Part shown: one piece after another, positions 12,572 through 21,426 of the stretch
Layout: each line of letters opens with the position of its first letter
How positions within the stretch are numbered: position 1 is the first letter of the stretch
IMG/VR virus record: IMGVR_UViG_3300010883_000558
Location: 1-22,329 of that record
Length of the DNA stretch: 22,329 bases
DNA from: a virus
Reading direction: 5' to 3' (one strand)
Position numbers and translations under genes: made by a program
Notes under the pieces: generated by a model
Told to the model about the DNA's origin: nothing
Database searches by the model: none
Seen by the model: the letters and a program-made list of their open reading frames with translations, nothing else

Positions 12572-12775
12572 ATGAAAAAGTTTTTAGAAAAGTATGTAAA
12601 TGGAATGTTAATGAAGATGTTTGGTAGTCGTAAATTTTGGTATACGGTAGTCGGAATATTAACATCCGTATTAAGTGAAAAATTCGGTTTAAACGCTGAG
12701 GAAGTAAAAGGTATATTATTGAGTATTTCGGCACTTGTATTGGGACAGGGTGTTGCGGATATCAATAAAAAATAG
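12572..12775 (+). CDS. Holin-like membrane protein (67 aa)
   Basis: 67 residues: basic start, a first hydrophobic segment FWYTVVGILTSVLS, a polar loop with LNAEEVKG, and a second hydrophobic segment ILLSISALVLGQGVADINKK. The 'RKFWYTVVG ... GQGVAD' pattern is common in small phage membrane proteins next to endolysins. The stop overlaps the GTG of the next gene by one base. Holin function is inferred from topology and position. Confidence 0.6.
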   Translation: MKKFLEKYVNGMLMKMFGSRKFWYTVVGILTSVLSEKFGLNAEEVKGILLSISALVLGQGVADINKK

Positions 12776-13536
12776 TGAAACAATACAGACCTCGTTTGAC
12801 TGAAAAAGAAAATCAGTTAATTGAAGAGTTTAGGGGGGGTAAAAACGTGGGTATCATAGGAGATACTCACGAACCCTTTTGCCTACCAGAATACAGAAAT
12901 TGGTGTTATGAAATTTTCAATAGATTTGGTGTTTCAGAAATCGTACATATTGGAGATGAGGTAGATAACCATGCATTAAGTTATCACGAAAATTCAGATG
13001 GAGCATTTGATGCTATGAGGGAGGCAGAAATGGCTCAGACTGCGATGGATAAATGGTACAAAACATTTCCCGATGTTAAAGTCTGTGTGGGAAATCATTC
13101 GGCACTCCCTTTTAGAAAAGCAACTTCAAGTGGTATACCAAAAAGATTTCTTAAAACTTATGAGGAAATTTGGAATGCACCAAAGGGGTGGAAATGGGAA
13201 TTACAATGGGAGATTGATGGTGTGTTATACGAACACGGGACAGGAACATCGGGACAAAATGGAGCGAGAAACCGAGCCTCAGCTAATAGACAATCAACCG
13301 TAATCGGACACTCACATTCATTTGGAGGGGTTTCATACATGGCAAGTAGGAATGATATGATTTATGGATTAAATGTAGGGTGTGGGATAGATAATTCTTC
13401 ATACGCAATGGCTTACGGAAAACAATTTCCAAAGAAACCGACTATCGGGTGTGGTGTTGTTTTGGATGGAGGTAGGACAGGTATATTTGTTCCGATGGAT
13501 TTGGGTAGTAAAGTCATAAGAACTTCAAGAACCTAA
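12775..13536 (+). CDS. Calcineurin-like metallophosphoesterase
   Basis: 253 residues from GTG 12775, overlapping the preceding TAG. The metal-binding motifs are in order: GDTH (D30, H32), GDEVD (D61), GNHS (N107, H108), YEHG (H154) and GHSH (H179, H181), so the active site appears complete. The third motif has Ser where Glu/Asp is usual. The family hydrolyses phosphomono- or diesters, including nucleic acids. It closes the rightward run before the large repeat region. Its substrate cannot be told from sequence; end processing of DNA or RNA, or nucleotide metabolism, are options. Confidence 0.85.
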   Translation: MKQYRPRLTEKENQLIEEFRGGKNVGIIGDTHEPFCLPEYRNWCYEIFNRFGVSEIVHIGDEVDNHALSYHENSDGAFDAMREAEMAQTAMDKWYKTFPDVKVCVGNHSALPFRKATSSGIPKRFLKTYEEIWNAPKGWKWELQWEIDGVLYEHGTGTSGQNGARNRASANRQSTVIGHSHSFGGVSYMASRNDMIYGLNVGCGIDNSSYAMAYGKQFPKKPTIGCGVVLDGGRTGIFVPMDLGSKVIRTSRT

Positions 13537-13544
13537 CATTTAAT

Positions 13545-14040
13545 GTTCTTATAACAATTAAGAACTCTATTTTTTGTGTTCTCAGAACACTTATTTCATG
13601 GTTCTTGGAACGATTAAAAGTTCTCTTTTTACGGTTCTTAGAGAATAAAAAAACTCTCTTTTTAATGTTCTTAGAGAATAAAAAAGTTCTCTTTTTGCTG
13701 TTCTTGGAACGATTAAGAACTCTCTTTTTACTGTTCTCGGAACACTTATTTCATGGTTCTTTGAGCTATAAAGAACTGTAATTTCATTGTTTTAGGAACT
13801 CTCCTAGGTAGGAATAGTTATTTCTAGGGTATTATATGGTTCTCAAGATTATAATTTTACTGTTCTCAGAACTCTAATTTTGATGTTCTTATAACGATTA
13901 AGAACTCTCTTTTCATGGTTCTTGGAACAAAAAAGAACTCTCATTTTACTGTTCTTTGAGCTAAAAAGAACTCTGTTTTTACGGTTCTCAGAACTCTTAT
14001 TTCAATGTTCTTATAGCTATAAAGAACCTCATTTATTAAT
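13545..14040. repeat. Array A: phased GTTCT inverted-repeat units (23/33 nt)
   Basis: Seventeen unit starts at 13545, 13578, 13601, 13634, 13667, 13700, 13733, 13756, 13789, 13839, 13862, 13885, 13918, 13951, 13984, 14007 and 14041. The spacings are 33 (nine times), 23 (five), 34 and 50 (once each). A long unit consists of a dyad GTTCTTGGAAC, then GATTAAGAAC, then TCTCTTTTTACT. A short unit lacks the central 10 nt, as expected from deletion between two GAAC copies 10 nt apart. GTTCTT also pairs with AAGAAC to give a 6-bp stem followed by T-rich sequence. No protein coding is apparent. Possible roles: protein-binding sites, origin, transcription barrier. Confidence 0.9.
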
Positions 14041-14060
14041 GTTCCTAATGTTAGTGGAAA

Positions 14061-14360
14061 GTACTAAATAAAGTACAAAGTACTAAATGAAGTACTAAAG
14101 TTGTACTTTTGAAGTGAGAAGTACTAAAGTAGTACTTTTGAGGTGGAAAGTACAAAATAAAGTGAAAAGTACAAAATAAAGTACAAAAAAGTACAAAGTA
14201 CAAAAAAAGGTACTTTTGAAGTGAAAAGTACAAGATAAAGTACAAAGTACAAAATAAAGTACAAAATGGTACTTTTGAGGTGGGAAGTACTAAAAAGGTA
14301 CTTTTAAAGTACAAAGTACTAAAATGGTACTTTTGAAGTACAAAGTACAAGATAAAGTAC
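14061..14360. repeat. Array B: 26 phased GTAC palindromes
   Basis: GTAC occurs 26 times in 300 nt, most copies as AAAGTAC or its complement GTACTTT. Starts run from 14061 to 14357 with spacings of 7, 10-12 or 18-19 nt only. Five copies of a 22-nt imperfect palindrome (starts 14103, 14132, 14210, 14269, 14327) have GTACTTTT and RRAAGTAC-type arms around a six-base centre. The minus-strand frame across it is Phe/Leu/Tyr/Thr repeat noise. It directly adjoins array A but is a different sequence family. Iteron-like binding sites are the simplest reading. Confidence 0.9.
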
Positions 14361-14373
14361 AAAGTGATACTTA

Positions 14374-14392
14374 AAGTTATAAAAAATAACTT
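14374..14392. other. Perfect 7-bp inverted repeat at the end of array B
   Basis: AAGTTAT (14374-14380), five A residues, ATAACTT (14386-14392). It lies between the last GTAC copy and the AT-only stretch, and may be an operator or a small hairpin. Confidence 0.55.
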
Positions 14393-14498
14393 GTTAATAA
14401 AATTACACCTATATATATATAGTATATAAATTTAATCCTCATATTTGTATTACAGATTCGTATGAATTTGTATCTACAACTGTAGTAGTTTTTGTTTG
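14393..14498. other. AT-rich stretch, candidate DNA unwinding element
   Basis: About 14409-14435 is almost only A and T (TATATATATATAG, then TATAAATTTAA). It follows two repeat arrays and precedes an operator-like dyad, CTACA-AC-TGTAG (14474-14485). Iterons next to an AT-rich segment are the usual arrangement of replication origins. No clear promoter is seen here; CATATTTG at 14440-14447 misses the -7 consensus by one base. Confidence 0.4.
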
Positions 14499-14531
14499 AA
14501 GCCCCTTTATTAAGTTAGAGGGGCTTTTTTT
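14499..14531 (+). terminator. Strong intrinsic terminator with no gene upstream
   Basis: AAGCCCCT (14499-14506) pairs with AGGGGCTT (14519-14526) across a 12-nt loop, followed by a T-run ending at 14531. It is the best terminator in the window, yet the nearest upstream gene ends 960 nt before. It either stops read-through from the late genes after the arrays or ends a small RNA. Confidence 0.85.
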
Positions 14532-14697: not shown

Positions 14698-14705
14698 TAT
14701 ATTTG
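14698..14705 (+). promoter_or_regulatory. Likely early promoter -7 element (TATATTTG)
   Basis: TATATTTG is an exact match to TAnnTTTG and lies 33 nt before the amidoligase ATG, leaving a short A-rich leader. No convincing TTG lies at the usual distance upstream, so phage factors may help. Its position just after the orphan terminator and before the first gene of the new block makes it the best promoter candidate in the window. Confidence 0.45.
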
Positions 14706-14738: not shown

Positions 14739-15674
14739 ATGAACACAATCAAACAAAAATCAAACAGAACTTTCGGAGTAGAGGTAGAATTTCACGGAAG
14801 TAATTTAACTACAGTAGCAAGTAAATTAAGTGAAACGGGTATCTTAGTAGTTGCTGAGGGATACAATCACACAACAAGAGGACATTGGAAAGTTGTACCG
14901 GATGGTTCTTGCTCTTTTGAGTTAGTGTCTCCAATTTTAAAAGGACAGGATGGAATGAATCAAACTGTAACTTTATTGGATGCGTTATCTAACATCAGAG
15001 GAGTAAGAGTAGACAAACAATGTGGTGTTCATGTTCATGTTGGTGTACCGGATGCTACAGGTAAAAAAGTTGCTAATTTAGTAAAGTACTTCGGAGTAAA
15101 CGAACATATCATTGATATGGTGTTATCTCCATCAAGAAGAGATTCAAAGAATACATACTGTAAGAGTGTATTTGAGGGTGTTCAATCAAGAAATACAGGA
15201 AGATATACTGATAATGGAATGGATGTGTTAGAAACGAGTAAAACGAAGTTATTTAACGAATGTAATAAAATAGTAAAAAGAGATGAGTTGAATGGTTATG
15301 GTGTAGCTTCTACAATTTCAGACTTATGTAGTCTTATTGGAAGAAACAATGGTTGTGATAGATACTCAAAATTAAATTTAGCTTCATACAGAAAATACAG
15401 AACAATTGAATACAGATGTTTCAATGGGAGTTTAGATTCTCAAAAAATTGGACATTGGATTAACTTCTGTTGTGCTACTGTTGATAAAACTTTCGGAATG
15501 AAACAAGTTAAGAATAGAGTGATGGATGATTCAAGATTGGCTTTCGCTCAAGTATTCGGAAAACAAGTTGGAAGAAAGACATTGAAATTCATGGGAGAAA
15601 GAGCTGAGAATTTTGGATTACTTTCTAACGCTGAGGATATGTTTAACTTCTCTACAAGAAACGGAACGGTATAA
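14739..15674 (+). CDS. Amidoligase (glutamine-synthetase-like COOH-NH2 ligase)
   Basis: From ATG 14739 the protein has 311 residues; an in-frame TTG at 14703 would fall inside the promoter-like motif and is rejected. Motifs fit the Amidoligase_2 family: FGVEVEF (residues 12-18, E15 and E17 as presumed ATP/metal ligands), W50 to D55-G56-S57 and E61 in 'WKVVPDGSCSFELVSPIL', CGVHVHV (95-101), and RTIEYRCFNGSLD (221-233). The family is predicted to form amide or isopeptide bonds using ATP. The substrate is unknown. A class II glutamine amidotransferase with a closely similar leader follows, and an AIG2-like gamma-glutamylcyclotransferase lies downstream, pointing to a gamma-glutamyl or amide modification pathway. 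The family assignment is strong; the pathway is inference. Confidence 0.85.
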   Translation: MNTIKQKSNRTFGVEVEFHGSNLTTVASKLSETGILVVAEGYNHTTRGHWKVVPDGSCSFELVSPILKGQDGMNQTVTLLDALSNIRGVRVDKQCGVHVHVGVPDATGKKVANLVKYFGVNEHIIDMVLSPSRRDSKNTYCKSVFEGVQSRNTGRYTDNGMDVLETSKTKLFNECNKIVKRDELNGYGVASTISDLCSLIGRNNGCDRYSKLNLASYRKYRTIEYRCFNGSLDSQKIGHWINFCCATVDKTFGMKQVKNRVMDDSRLAFAQVFGKQVGRKTLKFMGERAENFGLLSNAEDMFNFSTRNGTV

Positions 15675-15697
15675 AAGATGTTTGTTTGTTCCACTTG

Positions 15698-15719
15698 CCT
15701 CTCATAGAAATATGAGGGG
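15698..15719 (+). terminator. Hairpin between amidoligase and amidotransferase genes
   Basis: CCTCTCAT (15698-15705) pairs with ATGAGGGG (15712-15719) around AGAAAT, with one wobble, followed by TTTTC. It looks like a partial terminator or an RNA processing/stability element that would set the ratio of the two enzymes. Confidence 0.5.
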
Positions 15720-15769
15720 TTTTCGTGGTAGAGGATATTCTCTAACAAACAAAAACAAAAACAAAAATT

Positions 15770-16711
15770 ATGTGTGGATTAATTGGTTACAACGGAAAAG
15801 ATGGACAAAAAGCAAACCCTGAAATATTGAGGAAATTAATGAAAGCAAACGATTCAAGAGGAGGTCATTCAACAGGATACTTTGATGGAACTTCAATGAA
15901 TAAAGTATTAGGTAAAAGTGATACATTACCAATGCCGAATGATACTGATATGTTTATCGGTCATACTCGTTATGCTACTCACGGGAAAAAGAGTGTTGCA
16001 AATCAACATCCTTTTCAGTATGGAAATGTTGTGGGTGCTCATAATGGAGTGGTTCATAATTATAGAGAAGTCGGAGAGAAATTTGGTATTGAAGAAACTG
16101 AGGTTGATTCACAAATGATATTTGAACTTCTAAGTAAAAAAGGAAGATTAGATTCATTAGGAAAATTCACGGGAGCATTAGCTACATTGTTTACGATGGA
16201 TGATAAGTATTACACTTATAGAAAAACGAACCCGTTATGGGTGGGGAGAGATAAAAAAGGAGGAGTTTATTTTTCTTCATTAAGAGATGTGATGATTAAA
16301 GAATGTAAATTGGATAATGTTTTTCAATTGAAAGAGGGTAGAGTTTATGTGTGGGAGAATGGACAGGTAATAGCAAAATATGATATTGAGCATGACCCTA
16401 TTGCTGAAAAGTATCGTGTACAGAAAAAACAATGGTTTGAGTATGGTAATGCCAATTACGAAAGTAAACCTCTTAGAACGTATAAAAAGGGTGTTTACAG
16501 CGGTATAACTGATTCGTTTGATAACTCAAGTAAGTTTGTTGATTCTAATGAACTCAATTTATATTTAGATTCAACTGATGAGGATAGAATAAATGCTGAT
16601 GTTGATATTACTAATTATGAGCTAACAGATAATCAAGACCAAATGAATCTATTTTCAAGATGTCAATGTCAAGAAACTAGTGCGGACTTGTGTTGGTGTT
16701 ATACTGATTAA
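15770..16711 (+). CDS. Class II glutamine amidotransferase
   Basis: 313 residues starting MCGLIGYNG, so Cys2 becomes the N-terminal nucleophile once Met is removed. The other Ntn-hydrolase glutaminase residues are present: SRGGHSTG (29-36), GHTRYATHG (64-72), NQHPF (79-82), HNGVVHNY (91-98) and EVDSQ (111-115, D113). These match GlmS/PurF-type glutaminase domains, which release ammonia from glutamine. No synthase, isomerase or phosphoribosyl domain follows. The C-terminal third is novel and ends with a cysteine cluster CxC-x7-CxC (C298, C300, C308, C310). It probably supplies ammonia to, or transfers glutamine groups with, the amidoligase encoded just before. The leader ends ACAAAAATT before ATG. 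Confidence 0.87.
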   Translation: MCGLIGYNGKDGQKANPEILRKLMKANDSRGGHSTGYFDGTSMNKVLGKSDTLPMPNDTDMFIGHTRYATHGKKSVANQHPFQYGNVVGAHNGVVHNYREVGEKFGIEETEVDSQMIFELLSKKGRLDSLGKFTGALATLFTMDDKYYTYRKTNPLWVGRDKKGGVYFSSLRDVMIKECKLDNVFQLKEGRVYVWENGQVIAKYDIEHDPIAEKYRVQKKQWFEYGNANYESKPLRTYKKGVYSGITDSFDNSSKFVDSNELNLYLDSTDEDRINADVDITNYELTDNQDQMNLFSRCQCQETSADLCWCYTD

Positions 16712-16727
16712 TCCTGTTCTTTGGAAA

Positions 16728-17018
16728 ATGAAATTAGAAACAACATATAAATGGGAGTGTCTGTATAAGATGGAGGGAACGATGTTTTCTTCTGAGGATT
16801 ATACCGACCTAGTTTCTCAAATGAGAAAACTCCCTTTCGACCAACCTCAAACAAATAGAAAACACAGACAGATGACAAAGAAGTCATTTTATGAATGGGA
16901 CAAAACTATATTAAATGATACAGATGATAAATCGTTTGTACTGAGTTTGATTGAATGTGGATATCTCAAAGTACTGTCATGTAATAGAAAACCCCTCACA
17001 ACGAGGGAAAACAATTAA
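16728..17018 (+). CDS. Hypothetical protein (96 aa)
   Basis: ATG at 16728 is preferred over a GTG at 16680, which would overlap the amidotransferase gene by 32 nt. The protein has an early beta-like part (TYKWECLYKMEGTMFSSEDY), a basic middle (RKHRQMTKKSF) and a hydrophobic segment near the end (FVLSLIECGYLKVLS). I do not recognise a family. A small hairpin, CCCTC-ACAAC-GAGGG (16993-17007), spans its last codons. It lies in the accessory block directly after the amidotransferase gene. Confidence 0.6.
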   Translation: MKLETTYKWECLYKMEGTMFSSEDYTDLVSQMRKLPFDQPQTNRKHRQMTKKSFYEWDKTILNDTDDKSFVLSLIECGYLKVLSCNRKPLTTRENN

Positions 17019-17036
17019 TAACTTAAATTTAAAACT

Positions 17037-17189
17037 ATGTCGTATATCGTAAAGACCAAAGAAGCAAAAAAACTTATAACTGAAAGAAGTTGGGAGTGGT
17101 ATAAGAAAGAAATTCAAAGATTAAAAGATTTAGATAATCAAATTACTAACAGAGTGAGGGCTACTTACTCAATTAAAAAAACAAAATAA
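17037..17189 (+). CDS. Small basic helical protein (50 aa)
   Basis: ATG at 17037 follows an A/T-rich leader (AAATTTAAAACT); the TAA shares one base with the next ATG (TAATG). The 50 residues are rich in Lys, Arg and Glu with a probable helix TERSWEWYKKEIQRLKDLDN. No family is recognised. Tight spacing, leader and end overlap support a real gene. Confidence 0.55.
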   Translation: MSYIVKTKEAKKLITERSWEWYKKEIQRLKDLDNQITNRVRATYSIKKTK

Positions 17190-17482
17190 TGTCAGAAGAA
17201 AATAATACATTTGAAGTACAAGAAATTCATACAACGATAAAAGAATATAATCACTCAGACTTGCCTGTGTATTTCAAATGGGAGAGTGGTTCTAAACCTT
17301 GGTATCATAGAGTGAGATTAGTGGAGGGAAAGATAATTTCTGATGTACTAAAAGAAACATATGATGGATGGGAGTATACTTATTCAACTATTACCTCAGC
17401 TTTTTCATCATTGAATACACCGATTGATGAAGATGAATGGAGGAATGTGATGCATAACTTTCAAATACAATTAAAAAAATGA
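17189..17482 (+). CDS. Hypothetical protein (97 aa)
   Basis: Starts on the final base of the preceding stop and overlaps the next gene by four bases (ATGA). The sequence has PVYFKWESGSKPWYHRVRLVEGKIISDV, a beta-type segment, and a WEYTYSTITSAFSSL helical part. No family is recognised. Translational coupling on both sides supports the call. Confidence 0.65.
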   Translation: MSEENNTFEVQEIHTTIKEYNHSDLPVYFKWESGSKPWYHRVRLVEGKIISDVLKETYDGWEYTYSTITSAFSSLNTPIDEDEWRNVMHNFQIQLKK

Positions 17483-17754
17483 GTGTAAGTAATTGTTGTG
17501 GTAAAACATACGAGGAAGAAGTAAATACCTGTGCCGAATGTGGTTCTTTTGAAATAGGAGAAAAATGGAGAGGAGATGAGGGGTGGACAATATGTGATGA
17601 TTGTCAAGCAGTTGAACAAGGATATACAGAAGTATGTGTTTGTGAAAAGTGTGGGGACATTTGTGAGCCTGAAGATGAGTCTGAATATCATGAAAGAATG
17701 AGGGAAAATTATCTCGAAGATAAAGGAGATGCTAAAAGAAAATACAATGAATAG
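17479..17754 (+). CDS. Zinc-ribbon-like protein (91 aa)
   Basis: Ten cysteines in 91 residues: C6-C7, C18xxC21, C39xxC42, C53, C55xxC58 and C62. The pairs CAEC, CDDC and CEKC are typical knuckles of zinc ribbons, so two metal sites are likely. The remainder is acidic and ends in a charged helix. Such small proteins bind nucleic acids or other proteins. The exact target is unknown. The start overlaps the previous stop (ATGA). Confidence 0.72.
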   Translation: MSVSNCCGKTYEEEVNTCAECGSFEIGEKWRGDEGWTICDDCQAVEQGYTEVCVCEKCGDICEPEDESEYHERMRENYLEDKGDAKRKYNE

Positions 17755-17798
17755 GAAAAGCCGAACTCCTTAACAGAGGCAAATTTAAAACAAAAATT

Positions 17799-18008
17799 AT
17801 GAGTATAGATGCAATGAAAATGTTTATGGCGATGGGAGATTTAACCAGCCAAAACCAAACACGAGAAGAGAAGTTAAAATTTCAAGAGAGGATAGTGTTC
17901 GCTACGATGAGAGCTAATATCCCTGAATGGCAACCGCCATCGGATTGGAATGACTTATCAGTTGAAGTAAAAGAAGAAAGAATTAAACTATTAAAAACAA
18001 TTAAATAA
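17799..18008 (+). CDS. Hypothetical protein (69 aa)
   Basis: The leader AAATTTAAAACAAAAATT before ATG 17799 matches leaders of several neighbours and supports the start. The protein begins with a Met-rich helix, then a segment ANIPEWQPPSDWNDLSVEVKEERIKLLKTIK. It is probably all-helical. No family is recognised. It lies just before the SSB-like gene and may belong to the replication set. Confidence 0.6.
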   Translation: MSIDAMKMFMAMGDLTSQNQTREEKLKFQERIVFATMRANIPEWQPPSDWNDLSVEVKEERIKLLKTIK

Positions 18009-18014
18009 AAAATT

Positions 18015-18653
18015 ATGAAAGGAATTATCGTGAGTGAAAACTCAAAAACTAAAAGAGAAATTGTTCCGAGTGGAACACATATCGTAAGATGTTATTCAAT
18101 GATACATATCGGTGCGGTTGAATGGGAGTATCAAGGAGAATCAAAAGTAAGTAATAAAGTACGGTTGACATTTGAATTGCCTAACGAAATGAGGGACTTC
18201 GGTGGAGAACAGAAACCGATGGTAATAAGTAAGGAGTATACATTATCACTTCATGAGAAAAGTAATCTGAGGAAAGATTTAGAATCATGGAGGGGGGCTA
18301 CTTTTTCAACTGAAGATATGAGAGGTTTTGATATCACACAATTATTAGGAAAAGAATGTATGTTATCTATAATACACAAGACAGGAATGTCCGGTAATGA
18401 TTACGCAATGATTGGAAATATTTCAGCATTAGGAAAAGGAATGGAATGTGGAGAACAATTTAATCCTAACTTCATTTTTAATTATACAGATAATTTTGAT
18501 GAGGAATGGTTAGAGGTTCAACCTCAATGGATACAAGACCAAATCAAAGGAACGGAGGACTATCAAAGTAAAATGAATCAAAAGAAGTTTAACAAAGAAT
18601 CATATGATGAATCATTTGGAAGTTTATTAGATAAAACAGATACACCGTTCTAA
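18015..18653 (+). CDS. Single-strand DNA-binding-like protein
   Basis: 212 residues. The first 160 residues look like an OB-fold phage protein: 'GTHIVRCYSMIHIGAVEWEY', 'NKVRLTFELP', 'VISKEYTLSLHEKSNLRKDLESWRG', 'FDITQLLGKECMLSIIHKT'. The protein ends with a charged low-complexity region and the tip LLDKTDTPF. An acidic tail ending in Pro-Phe is the partner-docking tip of SSB proteins. It sits next to DnaA-domain-like and initiator-like genes. I favour SSB or a recombination partner. The tip is less acidic than in E. coli SSB. It shares one base (TAATG) with the next gene. Confidence 0.65.
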   Translation: MKGIIVSENSKTKREIVPSGTHIVRCYSMIHIGAVEWEYQGESKVSNKVRLTFELPNEMRDFGGEQKPMVISKEYTLSLHEKSNLRKDLESWRGATFSTEDMRGFDITQLLGKECMLSIIHKTGMSGNDYAMIGNISALGKGMECGEQFNPNFIFNYTDNFDEEWLEVQPQWIQDQIKGTEDYQSKMNQKKFNKESYDESFGSLLDKTDTPF

Positions 18654-19045
18654 TGGAAAAAACAATATTAAGAGCAAAAATATTATTGTCTGAGCTATTT
18701 GATATTAATCTCAATCACTTTGAAAAACATACTACACGAGCAACGAAAGTAATTGAAGCTAGAAGATTTTTAGTTTATTTTCTTAAACAGGAATTGAATC
18801 TAACTTACTCAAAGATAATTGAAATCGTACCAGCTATTACAAATCATGCTACTGCAATCCATCATTACAAAAAATTAAAGGGGTTTCTAAATGTGGAAGC
18901 CCCTACATTAAGATTGTATGAAGAATTTAAAAATACTTTATTGAATTGTGATAATGTTCCAATGATTGAGAGAGAAATATTAGATGTGAAGAATGATATA
19001 AAATTAAAACGAATACAAATTAAACAATTAAAAAACTTACTATGA
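18653..19045 (+). CDS. Stand-alone DnaA domain-IV-like DNA-binding protein
   Basis: 130 residues. Residues about 30-80 follow DnaA domain IV: VIEARRFLVYFLKQELNLTYSKIIEIVP, then TNHATAIHHYKKL, which aligns with the DnaA signature R/N-H-(S/T)-T-(V)-(L/I)-H-x-x-x-K. The AAA+ ATPase domain is absent and the first 30 residues are too short to hold one. A coiled-coil-like tail (about 95-130) may dimerise it. It could bind DnaA boxes or the repeat arrays. The next gene overlaps by four bases (ATGA). Confidence 0.72.
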   Translation: MEKTILRAKILLSELFDINLNHFEKHTTRATKVIEARRFLVYFLKQELNLTYSKIIEIVPAITNHATAIHHYKKLKGFLNVEAPTLRLYEEFKNTLLNCDNVPMIEREILDVKNDIKLKRIQIKQLKNLL

Positions 19046-19278
19046 TATTAATAAACGATGTAGAGTGTCATACTCAAAGAGAAGTGGTGTTAGAACACCT
19101 TAAAACAGGTCAGCAGATATGTCAGGATGATGCTTACAAACTATGTGGTTCACAAAGACTTGCTGTGATTATTTATAATTTAAGAAAAGAGGGATACGAT
19201 ATTTGTAATATGAATCAAAAAGGAAAGAACCGATTTGGTAATAATACTAATTTTGTGAAATACAAATTAAATGGATAG
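19042..19278 (+). CDS. Small winged-helix/HTH protein (HTH_39-like)
   Basis: 78 residues: 'QREVVLEHLKTGQQICQDDAYKLCGSQRLAVIIYNLRKEGYDICNMN' is the typical phage HTH_39 pattern, with a recognition helix around SQRLAVIIYNLRKEGY followed by a small wing. Overlaps both neighbours by 4-8 nt. A DNA-binding role in replication or early regulation is likely. Confidence 0.72.
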   Translation: MILINDVECHTQREVVLEHLKTGQQICQDDAYKLCGSQRLAVIIYNLRKEGYDICNMNQKGKNRFGNNTNFVKYKLNG

Positions 19279-19921
19279 TCCTAACTATTATGCAATCATC
19301 CCAGCAGAAGTGCGGTACTCAGATATCAATCCGAGTGCTAAACTTCTGTACGGAGAATTGACAGCTTTATCTCACAAAGAGGGATATTGCTTTGCTTCTA
19401 ATAATTACTTTTCTGAATTGTATGGAGTTTCAAAGAATACAATTTCGTTATGGATTAAAGCGTTGAATGAAATAGGGTTTGTTAATATAGAAATGAAATA
19501 TAAAAACAAACAAATTATTGAGAGGAGAATATACCTCAACAAATTAAATGGGGGTATCACTAAAAAGAATGAGAGGGGTATCATCAAAAAGGTGGAGGAT
19601 AATATTACAAGTATTAATATTACAAGTTCTATTAATAATAGAAAACTTTTATTTGAGGAATTAGTTTTTCAAGTTGATGATGTTTCAAATGATATCAAAA
19701 AAGAATTTCTAAATTATTGGACTGAACCAAATCAATCAAAAACCAAAATGAGATTTGAGCTTGAGCGAACCTGGGACTTAAATAGAAGATTGAAAAGATG
19801 GGTTTCTAATTCTAAGAATTGGAATAAATCTCCTCAAAATTCAAAGGTCAAACAGAGTTTAAATTCACATCAAAAAGCTAAGGAAATGATACGACAAATG
19901 AATAATAATACTAATAACTAG
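19271..19921 (+). CDS. Replication initiator-like winged-helix protein (HTH_36 type)
   Basis: 216 residues. The N-terminal 75 residues, YYAIIPAEVRYSDINPSAKLLYGELTALSHKEG then SNNYFSELYGVSKNTISLWIKALNEIGFV, form a HTH_36/replication-protein winged helix. A variable linker follows. The end has FLNYWTEPNQSKTKMRFELERTWDLNRRLKRWV, the DnaD-like C-terminal pattern of phage replication proteins. It probably recognises the origin and loads the helicase; no helicase gene is visible in the window. It overlaps the preceding gene by 8 nt. Confidence 0.75.
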   Translation: MDSPNYYAIIPAEVRYSDINPSAKLLYGELTALSHKEGYCFASNNYFSELYGVSKNTISLWIKALNEIGFVNIEMKYKNKQIIERRIYLNKLNGGITKKNERGIIKKVEDNITSINITSSINNRKLLFEELVFQVDDVSNDIKKEFLNYWTEPNQSKTKMRFELERTWDLNRRLKRWVSNSKNWNKSPQNSKVKQSLNSHQKAKEMIRQMNNNTNN

Positions 19922-19929
19922 AATCAAAC

Positions 19930-19968
19930 CTAAGTGTGTTTTACTTCGTTCTAAACGACTCACACTAG
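19930..19968. promoter_or_regulatory. Imperfect stem-loop with shared TCTAAACGA motif
   Basis: CTAAGTGTG (19930-19938) pairs with CACACTAG (19961-19968) with one bulged A. The loop contains TCGTT-CTA-AACGA, a second inner dyad. The segment 19936-19959 matches 2371-2394 at 18 of 24 positions. It lies in the 80-nt gap before the gene at 20002 and may be an operator, partial terminator or processing site. Confidence 0.5.
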
Positions 19969-20001
19969 ATTGGGGTATGGTTGCATCTAAAATAAAAGAT
20001 A

Positions 20002-20397
20002 ATGAATTTACTAGGTATAAAGATAAAAGATATTGAGATAGAAAAAGTTAGAGAGTTTGCTGTTGATTTGCTCTCAAAATCATATATGGAATTAGGTCAA
20101 AGACCTAACGAAGAGGACATTGTAATGTTCGCAGTAATCTTAGCAGAAGATTTGAAAGAGGACTTTCCGAATTTAGAATTGGAAGACATCCGTCAGAGTT
20201 TCAGACAAGGAATTAGAAACAGTGAGAAATTTCATATGACAGTCAAAACATATTATCATTGGATTAAATCTCACAGACAAATAATTTGGGATAACGAATC
20301 AAAAGAGCCAGAAAGAAAAGATAAACGGCTCAAGTATAGAAGTCGCAATGGAACAGGATTAAAGAAATTGAATATTAATAAAAATAGATTGAAATAA
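20002..20397 (+). CDS. Conserved-type phage protein of unknown function (131 aa)
   Basis: The helical core FAVILAEDLKEDFPNLELEDIRQSFRQGIRNSEKFHMTVKTYYHWIKSHRQIIW resembles a protein type often seen in the replication region of Bacteroidota phages, with no assigned role. A lysine/arginine-rich tail (residues about 95-131) could bind nucleic acid. It has its own short upstream region with a stem-loop. Confidence 0.7.
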   Translation: MNLLGIKIKDIEIEKVREFAVDLLSKSYMELGQRPNEEDIVMFAVILAEDLKEDFPNLELEDIRQSFRQGIRNSEKFHMTVKTYYHWIKSHRQIIWDNESKEPERKDKRLKYRSRNGTGLKKLNINKNRLK

Positions 20398-20399
20398 AT

Positions 20400-20618
20400 A
20401 TGGAGGGTTATAATGAAGACACGAGAGAGTATCATAATTTTGCAATGATGTTTGGTTGGGGTATGTCTCCTGTCAGTAAACAAGCATCATACTATGGCAA
20501 GAAGATATATCCAACAACAAAGAAATATTACTATCCTGATAAAAGGACAAAAAAGTATGGAGCTCAAAGAGTTGAGCTATTAAAGAATGGTAAAACAAAT
20601 TCAAGAATAAAGAAATGA
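20400..20618 (+). CDS. Hypothetical protein (72 aa)
   Basis: ATG at 20400, two bases after the previous stop. It is Lys/Tyr-rich, with a GWGMSPV motif and a basic C-terminal half (KKYYYPDKRTKKYG). No family is recognised. It overlaps the next gene by four bases (ATGA), supporting translation. Confidence 0.6.
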   Translation: MEGYNEDTREYHNFAMMFGWGMSPVSKQASYYGKKIYPTTKKYYYPDKRTKKYGAQRVELLKNGKTNSRIKK

Positions 20619-20806
20619 ATCCAATAACAAAACTACAAATAATAGTTCGGACTTTGACTGAGGATACTAAAACGAAGCTCACACTCATTAGTATACTGAG
20701 TCGTAATCTAACTATTAAACAGATTGATGAGATATACAATTCAACTCATGTTACTGATAATGAATTTATTAACATTATAAAAAGAAACTATGAAACAGGT
20801 TTATAA
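20615..20806 (+). CDS. Hypothetical helical protein (63 aa)
   Basis: A four-base overlap with the previous gene sets the start. The sequence TKTKLTLISILSRNLTIKQIDEIYNSTHVTDNEFINIIKRNYE is likely all-helical. Its layout could be a small HTH fold, but no signature is clear. Confidence 0.55.
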   Translation: MNPITKLQIIVRTLTEDTKTKLTLISILSRNLTIKQIDEIYNSTHVTDNEFINIIKRNYETGL

Positions 20807-21014
20807 AATGAAACAACATTACTCAACTTTTCATAAATTCTTAAATGAAGAGGGATGGGGTACAATGGATGTTGCTGTAGTATTAGATATATCTGAACCA
20901 ACAGCAAGAAACTATTTCAAAGACCCTACTATTTTGAATGCAAGACATTTCAAAGTATTGATGAATGAATTAGAAGTTGACGCTAATTTTCTAATGGCTG
21001 TGATTTATGGATAG
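20790..21014 (+). CDS. Cro-like helix-turn-helix protein (74 aa)
   Basis: The first start at 20790 overlaps the previous gene by 17 nt; ATG 20808 (68 aa) is an alternative. The core WGTMDVAVVLDISEPTARNYFKDPTILNARHFKVLMNELEVDANFLM reads as an XRE/Cro-type HTH: scaffold helix, 'LDISEPTARNYF' recognition helix and two closing helices. A regulator of early genes is plausible. It is immediately upstream of the AIG2-like gene. Confidence 0.65.
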   Translation: MKQVYKMKQHYSTFHKFLNEEGWGTMDVAVVLDISEPTARNYFKDPTILNARHFKVLMNELEVDANFLMAVIYG

Positions 21015-21031
21015 GTGGTTGAAAAAATTAG

Positions 21032-21039
21032 TATCTTTG
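21032..21039 (+). promoter_or_regulatory. Candidate promoter -7 element before the AIG2-like gene
   Basis: TATCTTTG fits TAnnTTTG, followed by an A-rich leader of about 20 nt to ATG 21061. No good -33 TTG is at the proper distance; a TTG 10 nt upstream is too close. Suggests the AIG2-like gene may also be transcribed on its own. Confidence 0.35.
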
Positions 21040-21060
21040 GAAAAACAAAATAATAAAACT

Positions 21061-21426
21061 ATGAAAGTATTTGTGTACGGTACATTAAAAAAAGGGGGGG
21101 GTAATGATATCTTCCTACAAAATTCAAAATATCTAGGTTCGGGATGGACTCATGATAAATACAGATTATTTACTGACGGGAGTTTACCTTATGTAGATAA
21201 AAAAGAATCGAATTATATTAAAGGAGAAGTTTATGATGTTGATGAGTGGACTTTTATGTCATTGGATAATTTAGAGGGACACCCCTATTTTTATCAAAGA
21301 GAAGAAACATGGATTGAAGTTCCTGAGGATGAGGAGATTGTGAAAGATTATTTGTGTTGGATGTATTTTATAAATGAACAACCTACTAGTAAAGTTGTAG
21401 AAATAAAATCGGGAGAATGGAAATAA
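21061..21426 (+). CDS. Gamma-glutamylcyclotransferase-like protein (AIG2/GGACT family)
   Basis: ATG 21061 is chosen over 21007 because the family begins with KVFVYGTLKKGG at its N terminus and the extra 18 residues lack family features. The 121-residue protein has VYGTLKKG (5-12), KGEVYDV (54-60), and LDNLEGHPYFYQRE (68-81) with E72 as the presumed catalytic glutamate. The family cleaves gamma-glutamyl-amine bonds, releasing 5-oxoproline. A G8 run at 21094-21101 after an A7 run is slippage-prone. It may reverse or complete the reaction of the amidoligase/amidotransferase pair. The ligase is 5.4 kb upstream, so the functional link is inference. Confidence 0.82.
   Translation: MKVFVYGTLKKGGGNDIFLQNSKYLGSGWTHDKYRLFTDGSLPYVDKKESNYIKGEVYDVDEWTFMSLDNLEGHPYFYQREETWIEVPEDEEIVKDYLCWMYFINEQPTSKVVEIKSGEWK

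Follow-up and report, generated by a model that had tools for sequence, protein, structure and literature searches.

IMGVR_UViG_3300010883_000558 is a virus record of 22,329 bases, the whole of which is referred to here as the window. Genes for the head, tail and lysis extend up to ~13.5 kb and are followed by a repeat-rich intergenic stretch, a hairpin and then a block of early-type genes. This block encodes the four proteins considered here: an amidoligase, a stand-alone class II glutaminase, an AIG2-type cyclotransferase and a protein of 96 residues, the small partner protein or SP (Table 1). An earlier note on this DNA had assigned the three enzymes to an amide/gamma-glutamyl modification pathway. 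That assignment of families is correct, as the three open reading frames (ORFs) are intact, belong to matching PHROGs families and score above the Pfam cut-offs. The fourth gene, which is also conserved, was overlooked.

Table 1. Coordinates of the amidoligase cassette and of associated features in the window.
Feature	Position	Strand	Description or basis
Terminator-like hairpin	14498..14527	+	12-pair stem with 5 G-C pairs, then a T run; just upstream of the ligase gene
TATATTTG, possible Bacteroidota-type -7 element	14698..14705	+	upstream of the ligase gene; read off the sequence
Amidoligase_2 protein, glutamine-synthetase/GCS2 fold, predicted ATP-dependent carboxylate-amine ligase	14739..15674	+	Pfam, conservation, AlphaFold2 model
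Stand-alone class II (Ntn) glutaminase, predicted ammonia donor	15770..16711	+	GATase_6, conserved residues, linkage
CxC-x7-CxC cluster (C298, C300, C308, C310) in the C-terminal tail of the glutaminase	16661..16699	+	closest relatives
Small partner protein (SP), 96 aa, of a family following amidoligase genes	16728..17018	+	profile hits, whole genomes, AlphaFold2 model
AIG2-type gamma-glutamyl(amine) cyclotransferase (predicted)	21061..21426	+	Pfam GGACT, E72

The ligase matches Pfam Amidoligase_2 (PF12224) with an E-value of 2.9e-34 and 119.5 bits, the curated cut-off being 22. In an alignment of 75 amidoligases, comprising the window protein and those of the fetched loci, residues G13, E15, E17, D55, E61, V63, P65, G72, G96, H98, H100, R133, N213 and W240 are invariant. 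The AlphaFold2 model of the protein (predicted local distance difference test score, pLDDT, 93; predicted template modelling score, pTM, 0.92) resembles YbdK (Foldseek E 1.7e-5; VIA Z 12.7 with 224 residues aligned at 4.2 Å) and glutamine synthetases (best VIA Z 12.9, 209 residues, 3.8 Å), and GmaS and Dop are also among its fold matches in the PDB. Judged by this model, the ligase is a member of the glutamine-synthetase/YbdK superfamily. The combination that characterizes Amidoligase_2 proteins, a glutamine-synthetase/GCS-type fold (here a predicted one) with conserved acidic and His residues, is present. The likeness to YbdK/GCS2 carboxylate-amine ligases and to glutamine synthetase lies in the predicted fold and in the E-x-E and H-x-H motifs of superfamily type, and identity over the aligned part is 12–13%. 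A comparison of the ligase sequence profile with solved structures found no credible relative. The earlier note held that its proposal would fall if the ligase lacked ATP-binding residues; as far as conservation and fold show, short of a single-residue superposition, this is not the case.

The glutaminase matches Pfam GATase_6 (E 3.1e-13, 50.3 bits, cut-off 27) and retains Cys2, R67 and T70 of the sequence HTRYATHG, N78/H80/P81, the oxyanion motif H91-N92-G93 and D113/S114. The N-terminal Cys, Arg-Thr, Asn-Gly oxyanion site and Asp expected of a class II glutamine amidotransferase are thus all there, and the full set is invariant in seven phage relatives. No known synthase domain follows the glutaminase domain in a Pfam scan. 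Both observations agree with the earlier description of a complete catalytic site and no synthase domain. The Cys cluster in the tail, which had been presented as novel, is real and is confined to the closest relatives (L176–L179 and L037; 63–67% identity, linker of 6–8 residues). As a general feature of the family it was rejected, since it is gone in relatives at ≤58% identity. Going by this alignment, the tail is a minor, clade-level add-on outside the catalytic core.

The cyclotransferase matches Pfam GGACT (E 2e-24, 86.9 bits, cut-off 22.8), and its nearest solved structures are YtfP, PH0828 and AIG2-like domain-containing protein 1. Among eight sequences, Y6-G7 and E72 are the sole invariant columns, and E72 corresponds to the catalytic Glu that had been presumed. 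In C75C1-like phages, a single protein begins with a glutaminase domain and ends with a cyclotransferase domain, and the C75C1 sequence retains Cys2, the Asn-Gly pair and the cyclotransferase Glu. This natural fusion ties both enzymes to one reaction path. It occurs at L002:7506-8402 (phage C75C1) and in eight related loci (L256, L261, L263, L265, L267, L269, L271 and L275).

To score co-occurrence, loci were gathered from public viral contigs with one anchor gene at a time and the DNA around the anchor was inspected. A scan with the single ligase protein gave no confirmed matches, so that alignments had to serve as queries. That of the cyclotransferase was too diverse to be used in this way, and the anchors were glutaminase, amidoligase, SP and the DnaB helicase. 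All 80 glutaminase-anchored loci contain an amidoligase gene and 50 of the 80 a cyclotransferase gene too. When this set is collapsed at 50% identity, the ligase is kept in 13/13 clusters. Amidoligase-anchored loci have a glutaminase gene in 19/80 and a cyclotransferase gene in 43/80 instances. In the DnaB-anchored control, none of the three families is found in 72/80 loci, and the other eight are C75C1 relatives with the fusion. Because the C75C1 helicase makes up half of the control query, these eight reflect bias in the control and not background. The earlier note had expected the three families to co-occur beyond chance, and they do.

Gene order is conserved as well. In near relatives it is phosphoesterase-ligase-glutaminase-SP-...-cyclotransferase, with replication-type genes between the last two; in L018, all four cassette genes are contiguous. 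An annotated LUZ24-like phage has ligase-glutaminase-x-ATP-grasp-cyclotransferase, while Cellulophaga phage phi14:2 has the ligase, glutaminase, ATP-grasp and cyclotransferase genes together with a second ligase gene. Variants of the cassette were also seen. In L233–L235, L237, L239, L243, L251 and L253, the gene after the ligase encodes an additional glutaminase-like protein that has diverged. In L240–L242, L244–L249 and L252, two different amidoligase genes flank the glutaminase gene, and an SP-like gene precedes the second of these. That the three enzymes are unrelated metabolic passengers sharing a small genome would suit the ~4 kb between the cyclotransferase gene and the others, and it is very improbable: the linkage of 80/80 and 50/80 against a near-zero control already contradicts it, as do the natural fusion and the conserved synteny. 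Joint working of the ligase, glutaminase and cyclotransferase as a module is strongly supported, as co-occurrence is far above the control and two of the enzymes are fused in nature.

The fourth gene begins within the end of the glutaminase gene, with the true start probably at 16728. SP has no credible match in Pfam, PHROGs, NCBIfam or PADLOC. An iterated SP profile has 131 members in the fetched loci and all of these (131/131) are neighbours of an amidoligase gene on the same strand; in some loci a glutaminase or cyclotransferase gene separates the two, and the median gap is 10 nt. The gene order is ligase-SP in 83 loci, ligase-SP-cyclotransferase in 17, ligase-glutaminase-SP-cyclotransferase in 14, ligase-cyclotransferase-SP in 8, ligase-glutaminase-SP in 4 and other in 5. 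Among ligase-anchored loci, SP is present in 51/80 viral and 62/80 genome loci, compared to 0/80 in the DnaB control. SP is the most frequent neighbour of the ligase. In 20 whole bacterial genomes that hold the ligase (sizes summing to ~110 Mb), 23 of 25 SP matches closely follow a PF12224 gene, and SP accompanies 23 of the 24 PF12224 matches. The reverse scan of viral contigs, anchored on SP, returned 25 loci, of which 23 have the ligase adjoining or one gene away; one of the remaining two is cut at the contig end and the other, L347, is without a ligase gene. The SP members that have no neighbouring amidoligase are G008:C11:357846-358076 and L347. Further groups have SP-like proteins encoded after glutaminase genes, with weaker E-values of 0.0005 to ~1. 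As the best E-value among 5,391 opposite-strand ORFs is 0.07, only the stronger of these matches count. SP is a new fourth member of the cassette, in a comparison that did not extend to the primary text of Iyer 2009.

SP is predicted by AlphaFold2 (pLDDT 89.8) to have the order strand-strand-helix-helix-helix-strand. In the fold search, the best PDB match has a Z of 4.0, which is not meaningful, and a nameless viral predicted protein of 86 residues is found with an E-value of 4.5e-6. The family has no invariant catalytic-type residue, the C-terminal residue varies freely and the sole residue conserved above 90% is a Leu. With neither an invariant catalytic-type residue nor a conserved C-terminus in the alignment, SP is more likely to be a structural or adaptor protein than an enzyme or a tag like Pup. 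The same data bear on the idea that the ligase modifies or tags proteins, with SP as its substrate or carrier (compare Pup and LysW) and with the cyclotransferase removing gamma-glutamyl units from SP. Here, the small size of SP, its position as the most constant neighbour of the ligase and the presence of Dop, a glutamine-synthetase-fold enzyme working on Pup, among the fold matches recall PafA/Dop-Pup tagging. In contrast to Pup, SP has no conserved C-terminal Glu/Gln, and its predicted fold is compact. It also has no near-invariant Lys, Asp, Glu or Cys, whereas a fixed acceptor residue would be expected. Tagging of SP is accordingly rather unlikely.

Enzymes of this kind have been described as a putative peptidoglycan-modification cassette in LUZ24-, RIO-1- and phiEco32-like phages (PMC5498523, PMC11945000, PMC3890496, PMC10580990), and were named in phage UFV-P2 (PMC3890496). 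Two of these papers cite Iyer 2009 and Hardies 2013 for the cassette (PMC5498523, PMC11945000). Proposed roles are action against superinfection (PMC5498523, PMC10580990) and the preparation of lysis (PMC11945000). In Pseudoalteromonas phage HP1, the homologous genes are the first to be expressed, immediately on infection (PMC7082346). The idea of the cassette is thus already known. The published evidence consists of predictions and expression data, and action on peptidoglycan is among the predictions; in phage genomes it has been listed for more than 10 years as a presumed cell-wall modifier.

The window shares with the LUZ24-, RIO-1-, PSA-HP1- and phiEco32-like cassettes an Amidoligase_2 gene next to a class II glutaminase gene, a nearby AIG2-type cyclotransferase gene and the early-gene setting. 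It differs from them in that SP is present and the glutaminase is shorter (313 residues versus 517 in a LUZ24-like phage), and no second COOH-NH2 ligase or ATP-grasp gene was found in the window clade. PF14395 (COOH-NH2 ligase) was absent from eight near relatives, whose records are possibly fragments, and was detected in both control phages; profiles built from two phage ATP-grasp proteins likewise found no homologue in the clade, with the same reservation as to fragments. A PF13535 scan missed the control phages as well. In the window, the phage amidoligase cassette thus appears in a probably reduced form. With a single ligase, it would make one kind of linkage, as opposed to the three unusual ones that have been proposed for the fuller cassette. 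Consecutive cyclotransferase, amidoligase and glutaminase genes are also found in Arthrobacter phage Kovu (Laroyevirus), and the ligase and glutaminase genes are adjacent in Salgado. There, identity is ~30%, the order is cyclotransferase-ligase-glutaminase and the only SP-like gene is a doubtful one in the related phage Ottawa.

Amide/gamma-glutamyl chemistry is consistent with the folds and conserved residues of the three enzymes. The best explanation as a whole, which is held to be probable, is that the reduced cassette carries out ATP-driven amidation early in infection, perhaps on the host envelope. Here, the amidoligase would use ATP to activate a carboxylate as an acyl phosphate, in the manner of glutamine synthetase, and join it to ammonia or an amine. 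The glutaminase would release ammonia from glutamine beside the ligase, while SP would bind the ligase as an accessory subunit, serving as a scaffold or target adaptor. The cyclotransferase would take off gamma-glutamyl groups as 5-oxoproline and so finish, recycle or undo the product. Of the pathway suggested in the earlier note, joint working is supported and the chemistry is plausible, and writing and erasing a mark becomes one of several readings. The module would be made at the start of infection. Its likeliest role may be to alter the host envelope, for instance by amidating a cell-wall peptide and so excluding other phages, although the envelope as target is put forward tentatively, at somewhat below an even chance. 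A glutaminase paired with a separate ATP-dependent ligase for carboxylate amidation is also the plan of MurT-GatD, which serves in peptidoglycan amidation (PMC3267633). The families are different in that system, which uses a Mur ligase and a class I glutaminase.

Several points weigh against this explanation. Many amidoligase loci are without a glutaminase or cyclotransferase gene, which shows that the ligase can do without either. In bacterial genomes it also occurs with SP alone, and a role purely in lytic phages misses such cases. The cyclotransferase gene is distant from the other three in the window, the control was anchored on one DnaB family alone, and no enzymatic activity or proven target of any phage member was found in the accessible literature. 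An alternative has a modest chance of being correct: the true core would be a two-protein unit of amidoligase and SP found in phages, other mobile elements and bacterial chromosomes, with the rest optional. Both the glutaminase and the cyclotransferase would then supply the ligase with an amine released from a gamma-glutamyl amide, be it glutamine or a gamma-glutamyl amine. If true, the system would represent a new, modular class of amidation fed by amines, with SP as an obligate subunit or target adaptor. Should the ligase prove inactive by itself in vitro, the near-constant presence of SP would offer an explanation. In Phocaeicola vulgatus (L158, 6048-10959), a ligase-SP pair lies ~2 kb downstream of a gene for a conjugative coupling protein (TraG/TraD). 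The pair may travel outside phages too.

Two further targets were considered for the cassette. Class II glutaminases and AIG2 enzymes act on small-molecule gamma-glutamyl amides, an AIG2 example being butirosin synthesis. The cassette might then make or destroy a small molecule, such as a metabolite that bears an amide or gamma-glutamyl group and blocks a defence signal of the host, and its immediate expression in phage HP1 would suit this. PADLOC gave no defence-system match, and this possibility is considered unlikely. Should the cassette act by editing the envelope or a defence signal, it would be a tool of early takeover common to widely different phages. The earlier note also suggested modified DNA bases, the cassette adding amide or gamma-glutamyl groups to phage bases or nucleotides and so resisting restriction. 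Some phage thymidine hypermodification pathways do include amide-forming steps. Nothing was found that points to this target. The scan of window genes recognised none for base modification, and ligase-SP pairs occur in bacterial genomes, where the one examined adjoins conjugation and transposition genes. It is judged improbable.

Upstream of the cassette, the terminator-like hairpin probably closes the preceding block, and its position just before the ligase gene supports the earlier view that this gene opens a new one. The earlier note had also pointed to a leader shared by the ligase and glutaminase genes. The resemblance is weak and was rejected as evidence of co-regulation, since many other genes of this phage have similar A-rich leaders. 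TATATTTG is a weak candidate for a -7 element, as there is no matching -33 element at the usual spacing. A scan for sigma-70 promoters found sites more rarely than in shuffled sequences, and an Rfam search of the window gave no matches. Directly upstream of the ligase gene, in the window and in near relatives, is a gene for a metallophosphoesterase (phrog_221; 12775-13536). Between these two genes, at 13539-14390, short repeats that have diverged form two arrays, the first of 33-bp units containing GTTCTNNGAAC palindromes and the second of GTAC-rich units of 29 bp and related ones. The repeat motifs tried from this region are not repeated in any fetched relative, and in several near relatives the phosphoesterase-ligase spacing is only ~280–320 nt. 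At the other end of the window, positions 172-411 are a low-complexity repeat stretch that codes for the acidic (Asp/Glu-rich) N-terminal part of the protein encoded at 160-1032.

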